Below, piece after piece: positions 40,711-53,940 of a stretch of 53,940 bases of DNA. The stretch lies in assembly GCA_038093975.1 (NCBI GenBank), contig JBBPTG010000168.1, positions 1-53,940 on the forward strand, given 5' to 3'. The DNA is from Chalciporus piperatus. Its lineage: Eukaryota > Basidiomycota > Agaricomycetes > Boletales > Boletaceae. Position numbers and translations under genes: made by a program. Within the stretch, counting starts at the first letter, position 1. Each line of letters begins with the position of its first letter. The notes below the pieces were generated by a model, which searched no databases, was not told the origin of the DNA, and saw only the letters and a list, made by a program, of their open reading frames with translations.

Positions 40711-43700
40711 ATGCAGACTCTTCTCAATGCTCTCAATGTTAAAGAAGACCCATATACCTGTCCGGTATGTTCCAAACGCCTCAAGACCACTCAGGGCTTG
40801 TTAGCCCACATGAGCTCAGCACGTCGCTGTCGAGAATACAAGAAAGGTAAAACGGCTGCACTAGGTAGCCTAGCAGACGAAGAACTGCAGACCGAGGAGG
40901 TGAAGGTAGATCGCCCAGTTCAAGTTCTCCCCCATCAAGCTGCTGACTGGCAAGAAAACCCGAGGGAGATTATAGAGGATTTCCATGACCAGCTCTATGA
41001 GTTGGTCCCCTTGGACTTGGACGGCGACTCAGAGCCGCACGCAGGACCTTCCAACCAACGACAAACGGAGGAAATAGATGAACGTTTCGAAGAAGACCTA
41101 TTTCCTCGTGCGGGGACCGTGATCCGAATGGACGAGACGCTGCATGAGAAGTGGCGGAAATTGTTTGGAAAGGAAGATGCTGACGGAGACGCCCTGATGG
41201 ATGAGGGCCCTGGCGACTCGGATGCTGCCAAGTTTACACCATTCACCTCTGAGCTGGACTGGAGGATCGCTCGATGGGCAGTTCAAGAAGGGGTGGGCCA
41301 CAAGTCATTGGATCGACTGCTAGCCATTCCAGGGGTGCGTTTCAATCGTGGACTCATTCATTGCAATAACTGACTCAGACGGATAGGTTGTGAAAAGTCT
41401 GGGTCTCTCATTCCATAACACCAGGAAGTTGCACAAGATAGTGGACGAGATTCCGCCTCACATCAAATGGACCACTCGCGAGCTATGGTATCAATCTGAT
41501 CCTGAGGCCAGACACACGATACACTATCGGGACGTCATCGATGCGGTCAAGACTTTATTGGGAAATCCAGCACATGCGAAGGACATCGTCTACAGGCCTA
41601 AACAGATTTTCACCAACTCGTCCAAGAAGAAGAGAATATACCATGAGATGTGGACCGGGGATTGGTGGGCAGCAGTCCAGGTAAGTCTAATCCACATCAG
41701 TTTTCCCCGTCACTGACAGTTGTCTCAGAAACAGTTACCTGAGCACTCCTGCGTTGCCCCCGTCATCATCTCAACCGATAAGACGCAGCTTACGCAGTTT
41801 TCTGGGGGGAAAATGGCATATCCGGTGTATCTGACGCTGGGCAACATTCCTCGCGCCCTTCGACGCAAGCCTAGCGAAAATGCATGCGTCCTCATCGGCT
41901 ATCTCTCCATCAGCAAGATTGTCGGCAAGGACTTGACAAAGAAAGAACAGTCGGCGCGCGTTCAACAGCTATTCCATGAGTCGATGAGGTTGATATTGGA
42001 GCCACTGATAGAGGCAGGGAAGAAAGGAGTGGAGATAGCGGGAGGAGATGGGAAAGTCAGGCGAGTTCATCCAATCCTCGCTGCGTACGTCGCCGACTAT
42101 CCCGAGCAGTGTCTGGTGACCTGCGCCAAGTACGGGACATGCGCCAAGTGTCTCGTCACAGAGGATGAGCTGGAAGAGAGAGTTCCTGGACCACCTCGCA
42201 CTCAGAAATCTACTGCCGATACCATAAGGAACGCCATGGCACAGGCCACGTCCAATTCCAATTACCTGGACCTTTGCAAAGCTGCGCTGCTGTCTGGTGG
42301 GGTCAGTCGACCTTTCTGGGACGGATTCCCTCTCTGCGACATTCATCTTTCCATCACGCCCGACGTTCTCCACCAACTATACCATGGGATCGTCAAGTAC
42401 CTCACCTCCTGGTGCACCAGTCTCATGGACACCAAGGAGCTCGATTCTCGAATCCGCACTCTCCCTCCTTGTTTCGGCGTTCGTCACTTTACCAATGGGT
42501 GGTCCAAACTGTCTCAAATCGCTGGCAAAGAAAGAAAGGACATGGCCCGCATTCTCTTGGGCGTCCTGGTCGGTAAAGTCCCCTCCCAGGTCATCACCTC
42601 CTACCGCGCCCTCCTCGACTTCATATACATAGCCCAATACCCCACCCACGACGATGATTCCCTCCAATGGATGGAGGAATCGCTCAGTCTCTTCCACGAG
42701 AATAAAGAGATTTTCCTCGCTGGGGAAAATGGGCTGGGCATCCGAGAACATTTCAATATCCCCAAGTTCCATTCTCTCGTGCATTACGCCGACTCTATTC
42801 GATACTTCGGAACCACGGACAACTACAACACGGAAGCTTTCGAGCGCTTCCATATAGACATGGCCAAGGAAGGCTGGCGAGCCTCCAACTTCAGAAATGA
42901 AGTTCCACAAATGACCCGGTGGCTGGAGCGACAAGAGAAAATCAGTCTTTTCCAGGGCTACGTCGAATACAGGACTCAAGACGACCTTCAGGATGATCGG
43001 GAGGAACCACTCAATCCAAAAACTTCTGGAGCTGGCGTGGTGATCGCTCGTCAGCCAGCCGTCCCAGGCCAAACTATCAATAGCATCCAAAAGAACCATC
43101 ACGCTCCCTCATTCCCTCATCATCTTCGAACCTATCTCAACTCCCTTCTATCCGCTGATGAAGCTCTTCCCCGCCGCAACATTCCATTTGCCCATCTTCC
43201 ATTCGACAAACTGGACATTTGGCATACCTGCAAGTTCGCTCTCGACGTACTCGGTAACGACGTTGATGGTACAGAGGGGATAGATTCCATCAAAGCCAAG
43301 CCAGGCAGGTTTGATACCGTTGTCGTGGCTTATACCAGCGATGCAGAGACTACAGGTTTGCAAGGTAAGTATAGTATCTGTTTTGAATTTGTACCCAACA
43401 ATCTGACATCTTGCTTTCAAAGGAATGCGAATAGGACGTTTGCGAGTTATTTTCAAACTTCCCTCCTCCCTTTCTCTTTTGACTCAGGCGCCTGATACCT
43501 GGCCAAAAGAACCATTGGCATACGTAGAGTGGTATAAGCATTCGGCGTCACCAGGCAAGTTCCACAACATGTATAGAGTTACTAAACCTTCTCTTCCTCC
43601 AAATATCTCAAACTTGGCTCCTACCATTCCCGGTGACATTATCCCTCTCAAAACCATTAGGCAGAGTTGTCAACTAATTCCGCATGTTACTGATGATGAG

Positions 43701-44049: not shown

Positions 44050-44620
44050 ATGGCAGGCCAGGGATCATCTAATGATCGCTTGCATTCAGCTGACTTTGCG
44101 CTCAATCAACCCGAGCATCTGGGTCGGGGCAGTCGTGTGTCCCGTCCTACGGAACGCATGCAAGCGATGCGTAAGTTGATTTCCTTTGATCCAGTCTTCT
44201 TTGCCAGTGCGCGGGCTAATATAAGGACACGCCTCACTTGCAGAGGCCGAGCGAACTGCAAGAGATGAGCGGCGCGGACAATATCCAGTCATCGGACCAA
44301 ATTACTCACCGTCTCAAAACTGGAACATCATGGACTCGAATGTTGCTATTGGAATGGGTAGCTTGCAACAGTCTATGCCCTCCTATGGCAATTTTCACCA
44401 AACACAGATCGCTAACCACAATGTGACTTTGTTACCCGGACGAGAGAACATGTTGGCAGCTGAGTCGCCACTAGTTGCACTCGATAACGGTCACGCTGGG
44501 CTGATTTCAAATGTCAGCCAAAAGGGGGCTTCTGCGAGAACCGCCGCCGATCTGCCACAGCCATCAGGACCGAGGCAGCTAGGCGTGCCTGTGGGTGGGC
44601 TCGAAGACACAGACTTGTAG
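44050..44620 (+). CDS. Small unknown protein (165 aa)
   Basis: Exons 44050-44170 and 44244-44620 over a 73-nt GTAAGT...TTGCAG intron, in frame. The product is polar, rich in Gln, Asn, Ser and Gly (SQNWNIMDSN, MGSLQQSMPSYGNF), and likely disordered; it may be the C-terminus of a longer regulatory protein whose upstream exons are lost. Its stop codon TAG is formed at the very edge of the next transposon (TA is the target duplication, G the first transposon base). Confidence 0.4.
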
Positions 44621-44709
44621 TCTCGAACCATCCGTTTTGGTCTTCGCCTCGGACGGCCTCGGGATCTTCCGAAGACCAAAACGTCTGGTGACTTTCGGTC
44701 GAGCACTAT
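44620..44709 (+). repeat. Left terminal inverted repeat with hairpin
   Basis: The outer 18 bp (GTCTCGAACCATCCGTTT) match the right end exactly. The hairpin arms extend to 19 bp if two mismatches are allowed. A GTGACTTTCG block inside is shared in position with the right end. Confidence 0.85.
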
Positions 44710-44826
44710 ACCATCGAGTCACACATGTCACACTCCTGTCTGTATTAGGCTTGAAAAATACTGCTTTTGGATGATCTCTTTCTGTTTTCGTGCATTGTCC
44801 CAAAATCACGAAGTCCCTGTCCGAGG

Positions 44827-47338
44827 ATGACCACTGTCTTTACTCAAAATGCCTCTCATGTAGAGCAAAAACAACAGTCCTTTACCAACCTCCAACGAGC
44901 CCGTGAACTCGCCACCAAAGCCTCCGATTACTCCACCGACGACACCCGCAAAGCTCTCACCACGGCATGCCTCGAGCGGTGTGGTAATCAGCCACCATAC
45001 TCCTGGCAGCTCGATGCTGCAGAGGTGTTCCATCTTGGACTTGACTGCACCATCATTGCAGGGACAGGGTTTGGCAAGAGCCTACCCTTTGTTATGCCCT
45101 CAATGATCTGTCCCGACAAAATACTCGTGGTTATCTCGCCACTGAACTCACTCGAGGAGGACCAGGTACATACCTATTCCTTTTCCTTCACATGCTGTAA
45201 TGTGATCAATTGTGTAGGCCCGGCGGTGCCATAATATGGGCCTTACAGCAGTAGCTGTAAATCACGGCACCTACACGAGTCAGGTACATCAGGTAAGCAG
45301 TCCTGCTCGCCTGTAGCTCAACATACTTACACAGATGAGAAGGAGCTCGAAGAGAGACAATACCGAATCATCTTTACATCCCCTGAGATGGCCATTGCGA
45401 ACCCACGATTCAACGGACTTCTGTGCTCGCCTGACTACCAAAAACATTTGCTTGGTGTCGTGATTGATGAAGCCCACTGCATAGTTCAGTGGGGTGGCGA
45501 CTTCCGTCCTGCTTATGCAAAGCTGAGTAAGCTTCGTTCATTCGTCCCGATGGATGTACCTTTGTATGTGACATCAGCCACAATGACCCCGAGCGTACTC
45601 GCCGAAATATGCCGCTTGCTGCACATTGACCCATTGAGGGGATTTCACCTAAACCTTGGAAACAACAGGAAAAATATTTACCAGGAAGTCCGCCTTATTC
45701 GCAACTCACACGACTTTGCGTCGTTGGATTTCCTATTCACAGGGATCACCGAGGCGAAGCAGATCGAACGGGCCTTGATATTCGTCAATCAGGTCATTGA
45801 TACTCAGCTAGGATGGCAGCACTCACGAAAGATGTTGCCGGAAAACTTGCAAGGTTGTGTGGGGTTTCTCCATTCGCGTCGCTCGGAGGCCTCCAAAAGA
45901 GAGGAACTGGACCTCTTTCGAACCGGCGAACGACGAGTCTTGTGGGTAACCGAGATTGGCGGCATGGTAATACAATTAATTCGCTGTGGAATTGCCTTGT
46001 CAATATTAATGGAGATATGCACAGGGATTAGACATACCGGATATCACCTTTGCGGGTCAATTCGGTGCGCCGCCATCGCTGACGGTCTGGATGCAGCGGG
46101 CGGGAAGAGCCGGACGAGCAGCTGGAATCCAAGCGAAGGCTATTTTGTTTCTTGAGGCGTCAGCGCTGATGCAAATTCGGTCGCGCGGTGACGACGATGA
46201 TGAATCAGATCACGAAGATGAGAATGAAGCAAGAACGTACCGCAAAAAGCTCGAACCAAACTTGCGCGAGTATGTCGAGACGCCAGAATGTCGACGCGTT
46301 GTTGTCGACCAACTGTTTGATAACCCGCCGGGTCGCTTAGGTACGTAACACGAGGCTATGATAATTCTCACTGGCTCATTGCCCCATTCCCCTCAGTCCT
46401 CGACTCGATGTGTTGCGACAACTGCACTGAGCGCGAGCGCTCACCGACCCACTCAGCCACGCAACCACAAGACACAAACGAACCTGTTACCATCAAGCTT
46501 GAACCCACACAAGATGCCGCGGCCGCGCCTCTCGCTCGTCGTGTTCAACAACACTTACAGGACGTTCGGGATGCCCTTTTCTCATGGCGTCGTCGCGTTG
46601 TCGTCCGTGACTTCCCCCATGCATGCTTTACCTCTGCAGTTGTCCTCCCCGACCCTATCCTGACCACCATCGCCTCCAAACGCTCAATCGTGACCCTCGA
46701 CGACCTTCACACCAATCTAACGACTCCGTGGGCGTTCGCGGATGAATACGGCGACGACGTCTTGACGCTGGTGAAGAAACTCGACGAGGACGAGCTGATT
46801 AGGCGGGAGGCAAAGAGGACCGCTGATCAGGAAGCCCGGCGTTTCGAGAGCGAGCGAAAAGCGGTCGAGAAGGCCGTAAATGCTGAGAAGGCTCGACGAG
46901 GGCGTCAGTTGCAAACAGCGAAGGAAAACTGCATCATTCCTGGCACAGGATGGTACACTTCTTTCGCTCTATTGTCCTAACAGCTTACTGACATCATTTT
47001 CTTGTAGTTTCGACCTTCGCGAGCCGAAAACATTGCATTCCGTGCCCGCTACCCCATCATTCGACTCCGAGTTGCCATCATCTCATCCTCTCATCATCTC
47101 GAGCACCCCGCGGCCATCACTCTCGCTCCCAACACCTCGCACGCCATTGTCACCTCGCAAAGCAGCCACCACACCATCCGCTGACCTCTCCGCACCTCAC
47201 GGCAATGTTTCATTCCATGTCTATACCCCCCAGCACCCACCACCTCATCCGCCCACCCCCACACGCAAACGATCTCAACGCGGTCAACGAGGAAGCGCGG
47301 ATAATCGCGAAAACAAGCGCAATAAAATTTCGGATTAG
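44827..47338 (+). CDS. RecQ-type DNA helicase of the TIR element (744 aa)
   Basis: Exons 44827-45165, 45218-45278, 45335-45966, 46025-46340, 46397-46952 and 47008-47338, in frame throughout (the second donor is GTCAGG). SF2 motifs: Walker A GTGFGKS (residues 79-85), TSPEM, DEAH (178-181) in VIDEAHCIVQWGGDFRPAY (the RecQ-specific Q-W-G block), VTSATM, TEIGGMGLDIPDI (motif V) and QRAGRAGR (motif VI). A Cys pair (CCDNC) follows as a shortened RecQ zinc region, then a coiled coil (LIRREAKRTADQEARRFESE) and a Ser/Pro-rich basic tail ending TRKRSQRGQRG. It presumably unwinds transposon ends or replication intermediates. The gene converges on DUF6589 with 21 bp between stops. Confidence 0.9.
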
Positions 47339-47359
47339 ATATGACTACGTACATAGTTA

Positions 47360-50051
47360 CTACCACCTCTCCGAAGTTGCTCGTAGGAAATCTCGCTTTG
47401 TCCACCATCGTGCTAACGTATTTTTTGTTGCCAATCCAACTGCACCTTGTGTAGTGATATCATGCACTATATCTGCCTTTGTGCGGACCACTCGTCCCTC
47501 TTCTGCGATATGAATATTTGAGCTCGTATATGCGTCCTCCAGTCGGGAGACATCTTTTGCATGGCTCGGATCGGTATGAGATACTCCCCGACACAGTGCA
47601 CGAACCTGGTGCTCCAAGTGTTTCCGAACAGCCTGCAGGGTTGGTATGGCAGGACTTCTTGCTTTCAATATATCCCAAGAGGCATTGGGGCCCTGAACAC
47701 GATCAGTCACCTTGTAAGGAGCATGTCAGTCATTGTGCTATCTTACTATAGTATACTCATACCTTTACAGCCTTGACATTGTACTCCTGTCTCTTGTCGA
47801 GTGGGAGAAATTTGCCTGGCTGTCCCGTCATATTGATGAGCCAACATCGCCTGCGAACAAAGTCACTGATGAGGCAGAGTCAGCCTGAATATCGCCCATC
47901 AAGGGAACCATACCACAGCTCGGGGGGCCACTCATGATGCAAGCATTGCAGAAGCTCCAAGACCTCTCCAAGATAATTCGAATTACGACCGCCAGCGAAA
48001 CGGAATGCGAGATGTGGGAGTGATGCTTCCAGGATGCCCACATCACCACTCTTGGTAGCTTCATAGAGATCGATATATCGGAGGACATCGCGGTTCCATA
48101 AAATGGCATTGTGGAATGCGTGGTCACGTTGGCCTTCTGGGAGAGCATCAATAGCATCGATCGCAGCACTAGATGCCAATGAGTCAACAATCTGTTTGGA
48201 AAGGTCATACAATTGTGAGGGGCTCTGTGACCGTAAGGCCTCCAAGCTCTCGACATCACCAACAACCTTCCAGCAAGCACGGAAATGTGCTTCACTGACA
48301 TGGTATATAGCATCGTGAAGGTTCTGGTGAAATGGGCCACGTGTCTGTACAGTGGTCAGCCCCTGCCTCTCGAGCAAAGTGAAAGCATGCATGAGACCAC
48401 GTCCTGCAGTGGTGCCAAGGTATTGCTTGTGAAGGGAGTTGGCGAAAGCCATCAATAGGTGGAACCACCCAAAGGTCGGGACCAACCAATCAAGGCGTTC
48501 GAAGGAGTTGCGATCTTGAGCGTGAAAATTGAAGAGGCCCCGCAATCGAGCAGACGTGAGCTGATCACCAACCCATACAACTACTCGATCGAGTCCAGTC
48601 TTCTTCATCTCCTCCTCACTGTCCAAGCGAAGCTGATGCAGAACTGCAGTCATGACATTCGCATTTCCCTCGTAACTCGCCTCCTCCAAATGCTCAGTCC
48701 CAAGCATGAACTGACGGGTAATGTAGTGCTCGCCAATGGGAAGCTGATTGACTGGTGGTAGGGGGACAAAGATCTCGTCGTCCTTGTAGGGATAGGTAGC
48801 GAAATCGAACTCGGAGCTGTCAATGAGATAGTGGAGGATGCGGTTAACATCTCGTTCATACTCGGAAGGCATAGCTTGACGAGCACACAAGTAGATGTCA
48901 TGGACTGAGAGAGGAGTCCGACGTCCCTGCGCACGGTATTCCTGAAGGGTACGGTTGCATAAAGGTGGTTCGGGGGGAGCGTTGGGCTGAAAGAAGACCG
49001 TAGAGGCTGTACCGGAGTCAAAATGACTTTGGTTGTCGATCCGCTGGGAAAAGACACAGAATGGTATGTTGACATTGTCGTGCGTAATGACGAAGGGGAA
49101 CTGGTGGACCCAGTCTTGAACGACTTGCATCTCGTTCTGCGAAATTGTTTTGAGGGCACGGACGGACCATTGGTGACTCATCGTGATGCCGAACGAGTGA
49201 AGCAGGTCGATACTTTTCGCTGGCGTGCCCTGGGAGCGGAGGAAGACAGTGATCATCTTCGCGAAACGGCTATGGTGATGCGAGCGAGAAAACATGATTT
49301 GTGAAATGATAGATAGAATGACCTAGTTGATCATGAGCAAAGCACTTGTCCGAAAGGTGACACCACAAACCAGATCGGGAGCCTTCATGGTATTTCGCGC
49401 TCGTTGCCGGTCAGTCCGAGCAAGGCGTAACAGTAAGGACCATAATCTGGGAGTCCCACCGAAGCCTGGACTGCTCAGCTTGAGGATCAAATCCTCAATG
49501 AACAAACTGCACAGCTCCTCCATGGACAGGTCCTCGGCGGGACACTGCAGCACATGCTTGATTGCATCGAGCTCATCATCAATGACGTCACCGATGCAGG
49601 TGAAAGCAAAGCGCTCGATCACCGTCTTCGCTCCGTGCGCTCGTGCGCGGGTGCTCTTCGTCAACCGAGGTGGCTGGTGCCAGCGAGAAAGGATGGAGGG
49701 CAGCTCCTCACTGACCATGAGTGCCGAACGTTCGTAGCGAATTTTCGGATCGAGAACACAATCTGGGTCCCCCCAGCTCACCAGATCGAGGAAGAGAGGA
49801 AGGTTGAGGCCGAGCTTATTCATGTAGTGGAGCACGTCTGCGACTTTAGCAGCTTTGTCGGGTCCGAGTCGCTCTCGGAGTAGACGGGTATGTGTGTGTT
49901 GGATGGGTGGGTTGGAGTCGTGATTTTCGTCGTCGGACTGGGATTCATCAAAGTCCGAAGCGAGATCAATGTCGTGTGCAAGATCTTGTGGAGTGTATTG
50001 GCTCGCGAATGGACCATAAAGATCGTCTTCGTCTTCGGAATCTTGGTACAT
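47360..50051 (-). CDS. DUF6589 protein, candidate DDE transposase (842 aa)
   Basis: Exons 49371-50051, 47914-49322, 47763-47850 and 47360-47710, all in frame. The N-terminus is acidic (DSEDEDD), then helical. The DUF6589 core runs from residue about 240 to 760. Three acidic residues stand in contexts like an RNase-H-fold nuclease: D309 in VITHDNVNIPF (end of a strand), D480 in VVVWVGDQLT (end of a strand) and E680 in RNSNYLGEVLELLQ (in a helix). Between the last two lies an insertion-like helical region (LDWLVPTFGWFHLLM, GPFHQNLHDAI). This D-D-E reading is my inference; the domain is officially of unknown function. An in-frame ATG upstream (50084) is possible. The gene is undamaged and convergent with the helicase. 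Confidence 0.85.
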
Positions 50052-50154
50052 GACAAGTTGATTAGCTAGGATTAGGATTTGCATTACATTCGTAGTGTGT
50101 ACTAGGGATAAAAATACGACACAAGGCCCGTTGATTGACAGGCGTGACACGATG

Positions 50155-50246
50155 GACTCGTCACCCCACGAAAGTCTCCATCCGTTTCAGGAAGCGGAAG
50201 ATTCGGGTGTCAGCCCGACCGCTTCCTGAAACGGATGGTTCGAGAC
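50155..50246 (-). repeat. Right terminal inverted repeat with hairpin
   Basis: This mirrors the left end. The 20-bp arms CCATCCGTTTCAGGAAGCGG and their complement enclose a 21-nt loop, and the outermost AAACGGATGGTTCGAGAC is the TIR proper. Confidence 0.85.
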
Positions 50247-50632
50247 TAAGCGGAAGCAGTCTTTGTGGCCTCACTGTGGACTCTTGGCTTCAGAGGGCTG
50301 TGATGGTAACAACGCGTCCTGCAGGAATATAGTGATGGATCAATGAGAAATGGAAGATACTCGACCCTCGGTTAGAATTCTGCAGCATTCTGAATCCCCA
50401 ATAGCACAGGTAGTCGTTGCACTGGCGCCTTACGAATATGAGTATCGGATTGAGTAAGATGTATATCATGAGATAGATTTCTCCGAGTTCAACTGAAGAT
50501 CCTCGTCAAGGTTCCTTGAGGAGGTGAATTGCCGGTACGTAAGCTTGAAGAGGTAATTTGAAGTCAAGCGCAAGTTGTTTCCTAGAGACTGGACTTGTCG
50601 CCAACTTGTTGCTGTATATTTTTGCACGCTTC
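50247..50632. other. Spacer between the TIR element and the Sec2-like gene
   Basis: 386 bp, non-coding, presumed promoter of the Sec2-like gene. An in-frame ATG at 50558 could extend that gene by 25 codons. Confidence 0.4.
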
Positions 50633-52072
50633 ATGTTGTCCGGCGTATCATTTGGCTCGAGTACTAGACCTTCACAGCTGCGGTCTCCAGTCCCACTGGC
50701 AGTCTCTCCGAATTCACCCACGTCTGCCATCTTCGCCGGCCTCGATGACGAGCTACGGGACATTCGGCGAGTCCATTCCCAAGGCCAAGAAGAAGACCTC
50801 AAATTCGCCCTGGATCGTGTCCTCAACAAAGTAGAACAGCTTGTGAGCCTCGTCGATGTTCCTACACGATGTCATGCTTTCTAAATTGATCTCCCGATCC
50901 ATGTGTTTTCTAGTCCTCTCTCCTCAAGACAGCGTACAAGACACAGACGGAACTCGAGACGCAACTAAATCTTGCAAAGTCGAATCTTCAGCTAGTCATA
51001 TCTAACAATGAGATGCTAGAAGAGGCTCTGAAGAGGGAAACACCGTCCAGTGCGAGGGATGTGGGATGGCGTCGATGGAGTGCTCGCGAAGTTCAGAACC
51101 ATAACGCGGAAAGGACTTCTGAGGATCGGCATCGGAGCCTCGACTATGGAGCGCTGAACGAATCCGGGACACCCACTGTACCATCATGTGCCGCTGTGGT
51201 GCTCGTCAATGGTGCCAACCCACCACCAACTGCAACGATTCCGCCCTCAACGCCGATGGCCGGTCAAGAAAGTCGATTCTTCAAGTTCCGGTTCAGCAGT
51301 GGTGGGTCTGGTACCAATCTGTGCCTTCTGGACATCGCTCATTCGCGGAACAGGATCCAAAACTCCCATTGCCTCCCCTCACCCCACACATCTTACATCT
51401 CCTTCTCTTTCAGCCTTGGTGCCGAATGCACGAGAGAAAGAGATGGAGGATCTACAGGAACAACTCGAGCGTGAGCGACAAGCCCATAAGACGGCTGAAG
51501 CCGCAAAGGCTGCCCTGGAGGCAGAGCTTGAGTCGCTGTCGCAAGCCCTATTCGAAGAGGTGCGTTTTTACTTTTCTAACAAGCAGCAGCGTCTGAATAT
51601 CTTTCAGGCGAATAAGATGGTCGCTACTGAACGGATGAAAAGAGCAGAGGCCGAGGACGAGCTGGAGGAGGTGCGACACGAGAAAGATGCACTGAGGGAA
51701 GCACTCCGACTCATTGAAGGGGAGAACGGACGATTACGCAGCGCGGGTGCCTCCTCGGGACGTACCACGCCTCAACTGACCCCGGTTCCTCCGTCGCGAT
51801 CGATGCCATCTCTTCAGCCATCGGAGAATGCTCTCAACGGCAAGATCACATCACCATCCAATGCCTTCGACCACCTCGCCGGCTTCGTTCTAGAACCAGC
51901 ACCTACGCGGTCGTCAGTTGTACTGCACCGAAAAGCCATCTCCATCTCCAGGGAGACATCAAAGGCCAATGAAGCACCCGCTATTTCCTCGACCGAATCA
52001 GTGGCGGCTGCTCCATCTTCTGTTCCGTTGATGCCTGACGAGCCATCGCCATGGGCAGATGCCTCATCGTAG
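50633..52072 (+). CDS. Sec2-type Rab guanine-nucleotide exchange factor
   Basis: Exons 50633-50842, 50914-51310, 51414-51559 and 51608-52072, in frame (405 aa). A short coiled coil (LDDELRDIRRVHSQGQEEDLKFALDRVLNKVEQL, spread over residues 38-71) and a second helical stretch lead to SRFFKFRF. Then comes the Sec2p coiled coil, with the diagnostic SLSQALFEEANKMVATER across the third intron. The C-terminus is Ser/Pro-rich and ends SPWADASS. Sec2 proteins activate Sec4/Rab8 on secretory vesicles at sites of growth. This is a single-copy-type host gene, 238 bp from the COG3 start, same strand; both act in Golgi-to-surface traffic. Confidence 0.85.
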
Positions 52073-52310
52073 TAGTCGCCGATTCTTGGTTCTCTCACTG
52101 CAAGTTATCTCTGAAACCGATATACATGCACAGCAACACTTGACGATCAGTACGACAGTGATGTATACTAGGAACACCGTAGATATAAGATGCTAAGCTA
52201 CTTTCATTGCTTGATACCATGATCTGTGCAGAGGAGGGCTGTTTGGTAGCGACGTCTCCGAGACCCGGACATGTAGTTGCGGACGTAACTCGTTCTTGGT
52301 ACAAGTCCCT
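52073..52310. other. Intergenic region between the Sec2-like and COG3 genes
   Basis: 238 bp holding the Sec2-like 3' UTR and the COG3 promoter. Nothing specific is recognised. Confidence 0.4.
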
Positions 52311-53940
52311 ATGTCAGCTGCTCGGCCAACTACTCAGCGCCGTCCTGCTGCCCCTCCTACTCCAATACTGCAACCAAAACCTCAAATTAGCCTTGAAGGA
52401 TGGGAAGCGAGAGCGCCTTTGAGCGACCTGGCTCTCAAGAGTGTCGCGGCTATCAAGGCGGCTAGCGAGAAGGCACCTCTTCCATTGAAAGTGAGTGTTC
52501 GTCCGCTCATGACAGCATGTCTCAACTTCAAATAGGCCACCGTCGACGACGATGCGTCACACCCGCCCACTCCAAGTCTGCGCGCGACGACCAAACTAGG
52601 ATCAGGCTCACGACCATCCACTCCCGTTATTGCACTCACGCGTTCTCTCCCCTCTCATGCTCTGGATCCCAAGGTGCCTATACAGACGCCCCAACAGTTC
52701 TATGACTGGTTCGCACAGGTCGATCGTTCGGTCGCACATAGCCAGGAGGCCCACTTCAGAGCACATGTGGCTATGGTCGCTGAACATCTCGAAACTGCGG
52801 ATATGTTGTTGGAAAGACTTGATGAGGTGGAGAGGGAGGTGGATAGCATGCTTGAGGCTTGGAAGGGCGTCGAGGAGAGTGGGAGGAGCTTGAAGGATGC
52901 TTGTGAGCGGTTGCTCGAGGAAAGGGTCAGTGGTGACTGCGCGGTATCCGTGTATTGTTCGCTGATGCGCCCTCTTACTCGTTCAAGGACAAGTTACTGG
53001 ACCTCACAGATGAGATCGGCACGAGATTGGAGTATTTCCAGGAACTTGAACACGCGACTCGGATGCTCAATCATCCTGGAGAATCGCTTGTCCTCCAAAC
53101 CGATTTCTTGTATATGGTCGAGCGTGTCGATATTTGTATCGAATACCTCAAGGATCATGTGCGCCCTTAATAACTGACCGTTATATTAACCTATCATCAC
53201 TCAGACGGCTCTATCTAGCGACATTTTAAAGAAGCTGAAATCTATCTGCTTCGCTTCCAGCAGTGCATGACGCGCGCCATGACCCTCATCAAGATGTTCT
53301 TCGTCGGCTCTCTTAGAGCTCTCACTGCAGACGTATCGAAGCGTTTGTCCGAGAAGGTAGAGCCAACGTGTGTTTCATTTTAGACGACACCCTGGCTAAT
53401 CTCGAGCACAGGATGTATCTGCTACGGCACAGACGCACCTTCTGTATACCAGGTTTCGCAGTGTCACACCTCAGTTGGCACCTCTCCTCAGCGAGCTCGA
53501 ACGGCGCGCAGCCGCACATCCCGAAGAGCTCTCCGCCCTCTTGTCCGAATGCCACACAGCCTACTTTAGTGCACGCAAGAGCCTCTTGGTCGGGCGTTTG
53601 ATGGAAGAAATACGAGGACTTGACCCGACGCATACCGAGTTAGTTGAACTGGTGAGGCTCCCATTTCCAGAGCAAAGACGTCTCTGTGAACCGCTCTCCA
53701 TTACAAACTACAGACGAATGCTGGATGCAGTTATTTGAAACAGCTTTGCACCGAAGAATTCGATCTCTTCCGCGAGTTTTTCGATTCTGGCGAGGATCAA
53801 CTATAGTGAGTGAGAATCGCCCCATGTACCCCACCAATCTCGTATTCAAGGACGACCGCGTTCGCAGCCCATACCTAGAAACATTGTGCGACTATCTGTA
53901 CGACGATCTTCGCCCTCGGATTCTTCACGAAACTCGCCTT
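52311..53940 (+). CDS. COG3: Conserved oligomeric Golgi complex subunit 3 (Sec34), 5' part
   Basis: Exons 52311-52490, 52536-52925, 52988-53158, 53219-53356, 53412-53651, 53714-53805 and 53868 to beyond the window, all in frame (introns 45-65 nt). The N-terminus is disordered. The Sec34 domain begins at PQQFYDWFAQVDRS and continues with a coiled coil (ADMLLERLDEVEREVDSM), FQELEHATRML, YLKDHRHFKEAEIYLLRFQQC, LIKMFFVGSLRAL, CHTAYFSARKSLL and ETLCDYLYDDLRPRIL, in the order known for COG3. COG is a tethering complex for retrograde vesicles within the Golgi. The gene is intact as far as seen; the C-terminal half lies outside. Confidence 0.95.

Follow-up and report, generated by a model that had tools for sequence, protein, structure and literature searches.

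How can a transposon move if it carries a helicase gene and no conventional transposase? This question is posed by contig C168 of Chalciporus piperatus, which was analysed in its whole length of 53,940 nucleotides (the window) and in which an element that we call family A holds two genes, one for a RecQ-family DNA helicase and one for a protein of the Pfam family DUF6589. Our analysis makes it likely that this is an autonomous DNA transposon, probably of the AcademH type, with the DUF6589 protein as an RNase H-fold DDE transposase. A preliminary description had proposed a complete transposon at 44620..50246 with flanking TA dinucleotides, had placed the mobility enzyme among the two genes, had suggested an AcademH-like element or a related undescribed family, and had thought it possibly active.

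The element is real and its borders lie two bases further out on each side, at 44618-50248. Its ends are identical over 20 bp in inverted orientation, as had been described, and this end sequence, TAGTCTCGAACCATCCGTTT, occurs at 19 exact places in the genome searched (35.5 Mb in 484 contigs). Matches to TAATCTTGAACCATGCGTTT with three mismatches were many and were dropped; by eye, they appear to belong to a different repeat, probably a retroelement. The left flank of the window copy (44100-44617) is found again at two paralogous empty sites, on C174 and C367, where the uninterrupted sequence runs through CACAGACTTG directly into GATGCG and the TA is absent. The TA is therefore part of the element end and not of the target. 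The empty sites, whose recovery the preliminary description had proposed, thus set the left border at the T of the TA (44618), place the supposed TA flank inside the terminal repeat and rule out TA as the target duplication.

The true target duplication of the element family is 9 bp. It is perfect in 12 of 24 assembled element or remnant junction pairs, while perfect agreement at 8 bp or at 10 bp is found in 0/24. Shuffled partners gave no perfect 9-mer in 1,000 rounds, and the mean agreement outside TA..TA is 75% of positions at 9 bp versus 20-27% at the other lengths from 3 to 12. None of the other lengths with perfect pairs (four of the 24 pairs at 2 bp, one at 4 bp and one at 7 bp) competes. 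Two further families, B (5,764 bp) and C, are relatives of A at ~65-68%. Three of the 12 perfect pairs were joined from two contigs each: one of A (C391/C360), one of B (C200/C215) and one of B inserted in A (C215/C391). The imperfect pairs agree at 8/9 (C20, C3), 7/9 (C16, C155), 6/9 (C172b, C32), 4/9 (C116) or 3/9 positions (C158, C195), with 2/9 for C140 in a separate comparison and 7 bp exact for C350. When B inserted into another A copy, within a helicase intron, it duplicated the 9 bp CCATTCCCC; in the window copy this site is unoccupied, which makes it the empty allele. One flank of the single full B copy (C215) pairs with C200 and its other flank with C391, which means that recombination or mis-joining of two B copies has taken place.

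The search for further copies with both ends, also proposed earlier, yielded near-identical ones. A split copy of A (C391/C215/C360) is 99.5-99.8% identical to the window copy, and an older copy lies at C19 (86-94%). There is also a 2,011-bp non-autonomous derivative, made of 1,005 bp from the left and 816 bp from the right of A with ~183 bp of other sequence between them, whose copies at C6, C1 and C201 show 99.0-99.3% identity in the main alignments and have three different perfect duplications; the copy in C201 is further interrupted by ~2.5 kb. By coordinates, the non-aligning middle piece is 183 bp in all three, the C6 piece being the one inspected. The near-identity of the copies (99.0-99.8% in the main alignments) and the three different duplications of the derivative indicate that family A has moved recently.

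Table 1. Coordinates of the family A element and associated features (contig C168 unless another locus is named).
Feature	Position	Strand	Details
DUF6589/RecQ element (family A)	44618-50248		5,631 bp; contig C168 of Chalciporus piperatus
Left terminal inverted repeat	44618..44637	+	TAGTCTCGAACCATCCGTTT; exact match to right end
Left subterminal palindrome/hairpin	44628..44689		DNA fold -21.8 kcal/mol on + strand, z -4.25
RecQ-family DNA helicase gene	44827..47338	+	746-aa model, all introns GT..AG
Helicase introns	45166-45217, 45293-45342, 45967-46024, 46341-46396, 46953-47007	+	
9-bp target of relative B	46384..46392		CCATTCCCC; empty in window copy; junctions C391, C215
DUF6589 gene, presumed DDE transposase	47360..50051	-	847 aa, four exons; PF20231, E 9.6e-121
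DUF6589 introns (three, GT..AG)	49370-49323, 47913-47866, 47762-47711	-	
First catalytic Asp candidate	49077..49079	-	HDN motif, strand beta-1; D in 68/71, N in 3/71 aligned proteins
Second catalytic Asp candidate	48564..48566	-	GDQ motif, directly after strand 239-243 of the model; 71/71
His of GxxH	48459..48461	-	just after last strand; H 70/71, G 70/71
Catalytic Glu candidate	47964..47966	-	NSxYxxE, helix 439-455 after helical insertion; 71/71
Right subterminal palindrome/hairpin	50178..50238		20-bp arms, perfect in window copy; -34.8 kcal/mol, z -8.95
Right terminal inverted repeat	50229..50248	-	TAGTCTCGAACCATCCGTTT; terminal TA at 50247-50248
15-bp right-junction stretch	50249..50263		starts AGCGGAAG; not the expected 9-bp duplication
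2,011-bp derivative copies	L031:2183-4193, L032:2188-4198, L033:2159-6669		

The two genes are convergent, with stops 21 bp apart (the helicase stop ends at 47338, the DUF6589 stop at 47360), and their models span 44827-50051, filling the interior almost completely, as the preliminary description had it. Both are open and splice-consistent under GT..AG models, as likewise described; their splicing is inferred from the frame, the GT..AG signals and comparison with families B and C. That comparison also replaced a first model of helicase intron 2, which had a poor donor, by a regular GT..AG intron; without the last intron the helicase model has 645 aa. Between A and B, the seven exons compared have ratios of nonsynonymous to synonymous differences (pN/pS) of 0.25-0.47; synonymous sites are close to saturated and stops are absent. 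Both genes are therefore under constraint. In Pfam, an earlier 744-aa helicase model matched DEAD (1.5e-17) and Helicase_C (1.5e-15), with RecQ_Zn_bind below the cut-off, and the best Protein Data Bank (PDB) matches are WRN (6.6e-33), RECQ1 and BLM. The Pfam scan of the element proteins revealed no nuclease domain and no Rep/HUH domain.

A conventional transposase is indeed missing from the element as judged by Pfam: all 35 DUF6589 members scanned match PF20231, and none of the other Pfam transposase models matches DUF6589 convincingly. Thirteen further Pfam families each matched one of the 35 members only (best E 0.007), and a sequence-profile search of the PDB with DUF6589 gave no match at E <= 1. 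The protein has a predicted RNase H fold whose best structural matches are the P-element and Hermes transposases, in lists from which the absence of a family does not exclude that family. The predicted core contains a helical insertion before the candidate catalytic Glu, and this residue and the two candidate Asp residues are conserved (Table 1). The His of GxxH has a position close to that of the C/DxxH motif which is described for hAT, P, MuDR, Kolobok and Dada transposases in the cited passages (PMC9587614). From the model, the DUF6589 protein is most likely the transposase, which agrees with the earlier assignment of mobility to one of the two genes. When viral contigs were searched with the alignment of DUF6589 proteins, 28 pattern matches came up, none of which was confirmed.

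The pairing of the two genes recurs. The 46 DUF6589 exon matches in this genome were merged by hand into 25 clusters, 14 of which lie no more than 8 kb from a helicase match; the remaining 11 are without one, some of these clusters being close to the end of a contig. In 13 of the 14 the helicase closest by is convergent, the exception (C391) being a nested B/A junction, and the helicase match at C62 is weak (E 1.2e-6). For this count, 32 helicase clusters were picked by hand from 81 matches and most matches weaker than ~1e-10 were omitted, none of which, by eye, falls inside the 8-kb limit around a DUF6589 cluster. In other species, 15 of the 78 best helicase matches lie on a contig of the same size as a same-species DUF6589 match, versus 0 of the 42 listed next; equal contig size serves here as a proxy for contig identity, and the 42, mostly bacterial or metagenomic, form a weak control. 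The contigs of equal size are as small as 6.3 and 8.4 kb, and in Agrocybe chaxingu the two genes have adjacent numbers (g10340/g10341). The pair thus seems to occupy common contigs in other mushrooms. One protein search returned at least 262 DUF6589 matches, and the best relatives include a protein of Melanogaster broomeanus (74%) and a partial one of Paxillus involutus (79% over 65% of the query), in line with a host in the order Boletales. The named matches among the 120 listed proteins belong to genera that we take to be mushroom-forming basidiomycetes.

Both ends carry strong subterminal hairpins, as noted in the preliminary description (z -4.3 to -9.0 when folded as DNA, with 0/200 shuffles as good). 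Of 20 hairpin pairs compared over nine ends from families A, B and C, 9 have changed on both sides, which 2/500 shuffles reach, and the covariation score is 0.311 versus 0.120 in shuffles (0/500) and does not exceed 0.119 when slid. The test uses few, related sequences and a structure derived from one of these; further pair types are no more numerous than in shuffles (275/500), and quasi-palindrome correction could be an alternative source of the covariation. The right palindrome of the window copy reads GGATGG where the other four A right ends inspected (C6, C1, C201, C360) have GTCTGG, as would result from correction of one arm by the other.

Thirteen loci keep only tips of the element, one left and one right of at most 67 nt each (C155 is ambiguous). 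By eye, no junction is common to any two of them; they look like separate deletions, and amplification as miniature inverted-repeat transposable elements was discarded. These remnants look like the outcome of failed gap repair after excision. Exact-end pairs occur at 10 places with spans up to 128 bp (9 loci, C32 and C86 sharing flanks), at three of 129-188 bp and at three of 189-248 bp, two of the latter being chance words inside B; the remnants were mostly found by patterns favouring short spans, and C45, C27, C54, C212 and C158 were left out of the dissection. Remnants with identical flanks (C147:3100-3300 and C200:1030-1230; C32 and C86; C71 twice) reflect either duplication of the locus or haplotypes that the assembly left unmerged.

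Taking the observed ends and 9-bp duplication together with the predicted fold and catalytic residues, the DUF6589 protein would recognise the TAGTCTCG ends and subterminal sequence, excise the element (a step that, like its chemistry, we infer) and insert it where the two target strands are cut 9 bp apart. The convergent helicase, as the second conserved component, may aid at an unwinding step, for example in opening the palindromic ends or in gap repair after excision. Some observations weigh against parts of this scheme. The window copy has no target duplication (2/9 positions match), which tempers the earlier suggestion that it may be active. The idea that the hairpins are essential for mobility is weakened by the remnants at C78, C131 and C120, which have perfect duplications without one or both inner arms, and by the family D end (C225, C254), which by eye has no long palindrome. 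The same remnants and family D also count against the view that the helicase, rather than DUF6589, is the mobility enzyme and works through the hairpins in a Helitron-like or single-strand manner. The covarying hairpin arms and the position of the helicase gene inside the element would fit such a mechanism, but the perfect 9-bp duplications, the inverted ends, the lack of a Rep/HUH domain in the Pfam scan and the predicted DDE fold of DUF6589 make it very improbable. A speculative combination, to which we give rather little weight, is that DUF6589 forms a distinct DDE lineage, that the helicase unwinds the covarying hairpins and that failed gap repair stalling there leaves the two-tip scars of 65-130 bp.

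The main rival to the AcademH placement is that DUF6589 transposons make up a DDE superfamily of their own, as yet unnamed, which gained RecQ independently of Academ and arrived at 9-bp duplications by convergence. In its favour, DUF6589 matches no other Pfam transposase model, the literature searched does not mention DUF6589 and has PF20231 only in unrelated work, and RecQ is also carried by Kolobok (KolobokH in the cited passages, PMC9587614), so the helicase has joined transposons more than once. The combination of helicase, 9-10 bp duplication and Basidiomycota, however, matches the traits described for AcademH in the passages cited below, and we consider a separate superfamily unlikely, if a serious competitor. 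A somewhat better chance, though still a minor one, goes to a chimeric assembly of the window locus, with left end, body and right end from different copies and the identity of the element unchanged. Besides the missing duplication, the right flank is 100% equal to C23 only from 50264, the 15 bp next to the element differing, contigs C340, C391 and C200 begin or end within A or B copies, and the sole full B copy has its two different partners. Against a chimera, the 15-bp piece is unlike a clean assembler join, the ends and genes of the window copy are intact, and other copies have the same ends. By eye, the 15-bp stretch looks similar to a portion of the right hairpin of the element itself, and it is possibly templated filler at a repaired break. 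The window right junction is a rearrangement or an assembly error, and neither affects the identification of the element as a probable AcademH-type transposon.

Upstream of the element lies a Plavaka transposase gene (41720-43495, + strand; PF18759, E 6.5e-83), and to its right (51188-53177) weak matches to Sec2p, below the cut-off, and to COG3_N probably mark host trafficking genes. The split A copy has itself been interrupted. Just downstream of its DUF6589 stop (L035:8700-8830, C215) there is a small retro-insertion with a poly-A run and a ~22-bp duplicated target, and the copy is also cut at L035:9631 (C215)/L041:5239 (C360) by an element that has a duplication of 3 bp and ends of the CATCA..TGATG kind, termini like those given for PlavakaB in the cited passages (PMC12730594).

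DUF6589 is a Pfam family of unknown function present in many mushroom genomes, and reading it as a transposase would give it one. Naming it so would clear many 'hypothetical proteins' from gene lists, a DUF6589 profile would help to find autonomous helicase transposons, and the role of a RecQ helicase in cut-and-paste transposition would become testable. The corrected borders and the 9-bp duplication are a prerequisite for transposition assays.

Among known systems, MuDR/MULE elements resemble ours in their duplications of ~9 bp, but PF10551 is matched by 0/35 DUF6589 members at E <= 1 and the ends of our element are short, at 20 bp. Helitrons combine a Rep/HUH domain with a helicase and make no target duplication, whereas our element lacks Rep/HUH in the Pfam scan and makes 9-bp duplications. 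The hAT (Hermes) and P elements are the best structural matches and, by the predicted model, may share with DUF6589 the RNase H core, the helical insertion before the catalytic Glu and the conserved His after the last strand; DUF6589 has, however, no hAT or P-element Pfam match, and we know of no helicase gene in these families. Moreover, hAT elements usually duplicate 8 bp according to the cited passages (PMC12730594), a length at which 0/24 of our junction pairs are perfect. Plavaka differs in that PF18759 is not matched by the element proteins, although the same Pfam scan finds it in the neighbouring element. KolobokH, described in the cited passages as occurring only in fungi, combines a DDE transposase with a RecQ helicase (PMC9587614), as does our element with its predicted DDE fold. 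It differs in its TTAA-specific 4-bp duplication, whereas our element duplicates 9 bp without TTAA and has the helicase as a separate convergent gene. In the Academ superfamily, the nuclease of AcademX is XPG. AcademH, of the same superfamily, was reportedly set out by Kojima in 2020 in Mobile DNA 11:15. In the passages cited, AcademH encodes a helicase and duplicates 9 or 10 bp, whereas AcademX encodes a nuclease instead and duplicates 3 or 4 bp (PMC10045372), and AcademH is low-copy in Basidiomycota, Ascomycota and Mucoromycota (PMC10799480). Our element has the helicase, the 9-bp duplication and the basidiomycete host in common with AcademH, which supports the AcademH-like character suggested at the outset. 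By these three traits, and compared with AcademH by its description, we file it as probably a new AcademH-type family.
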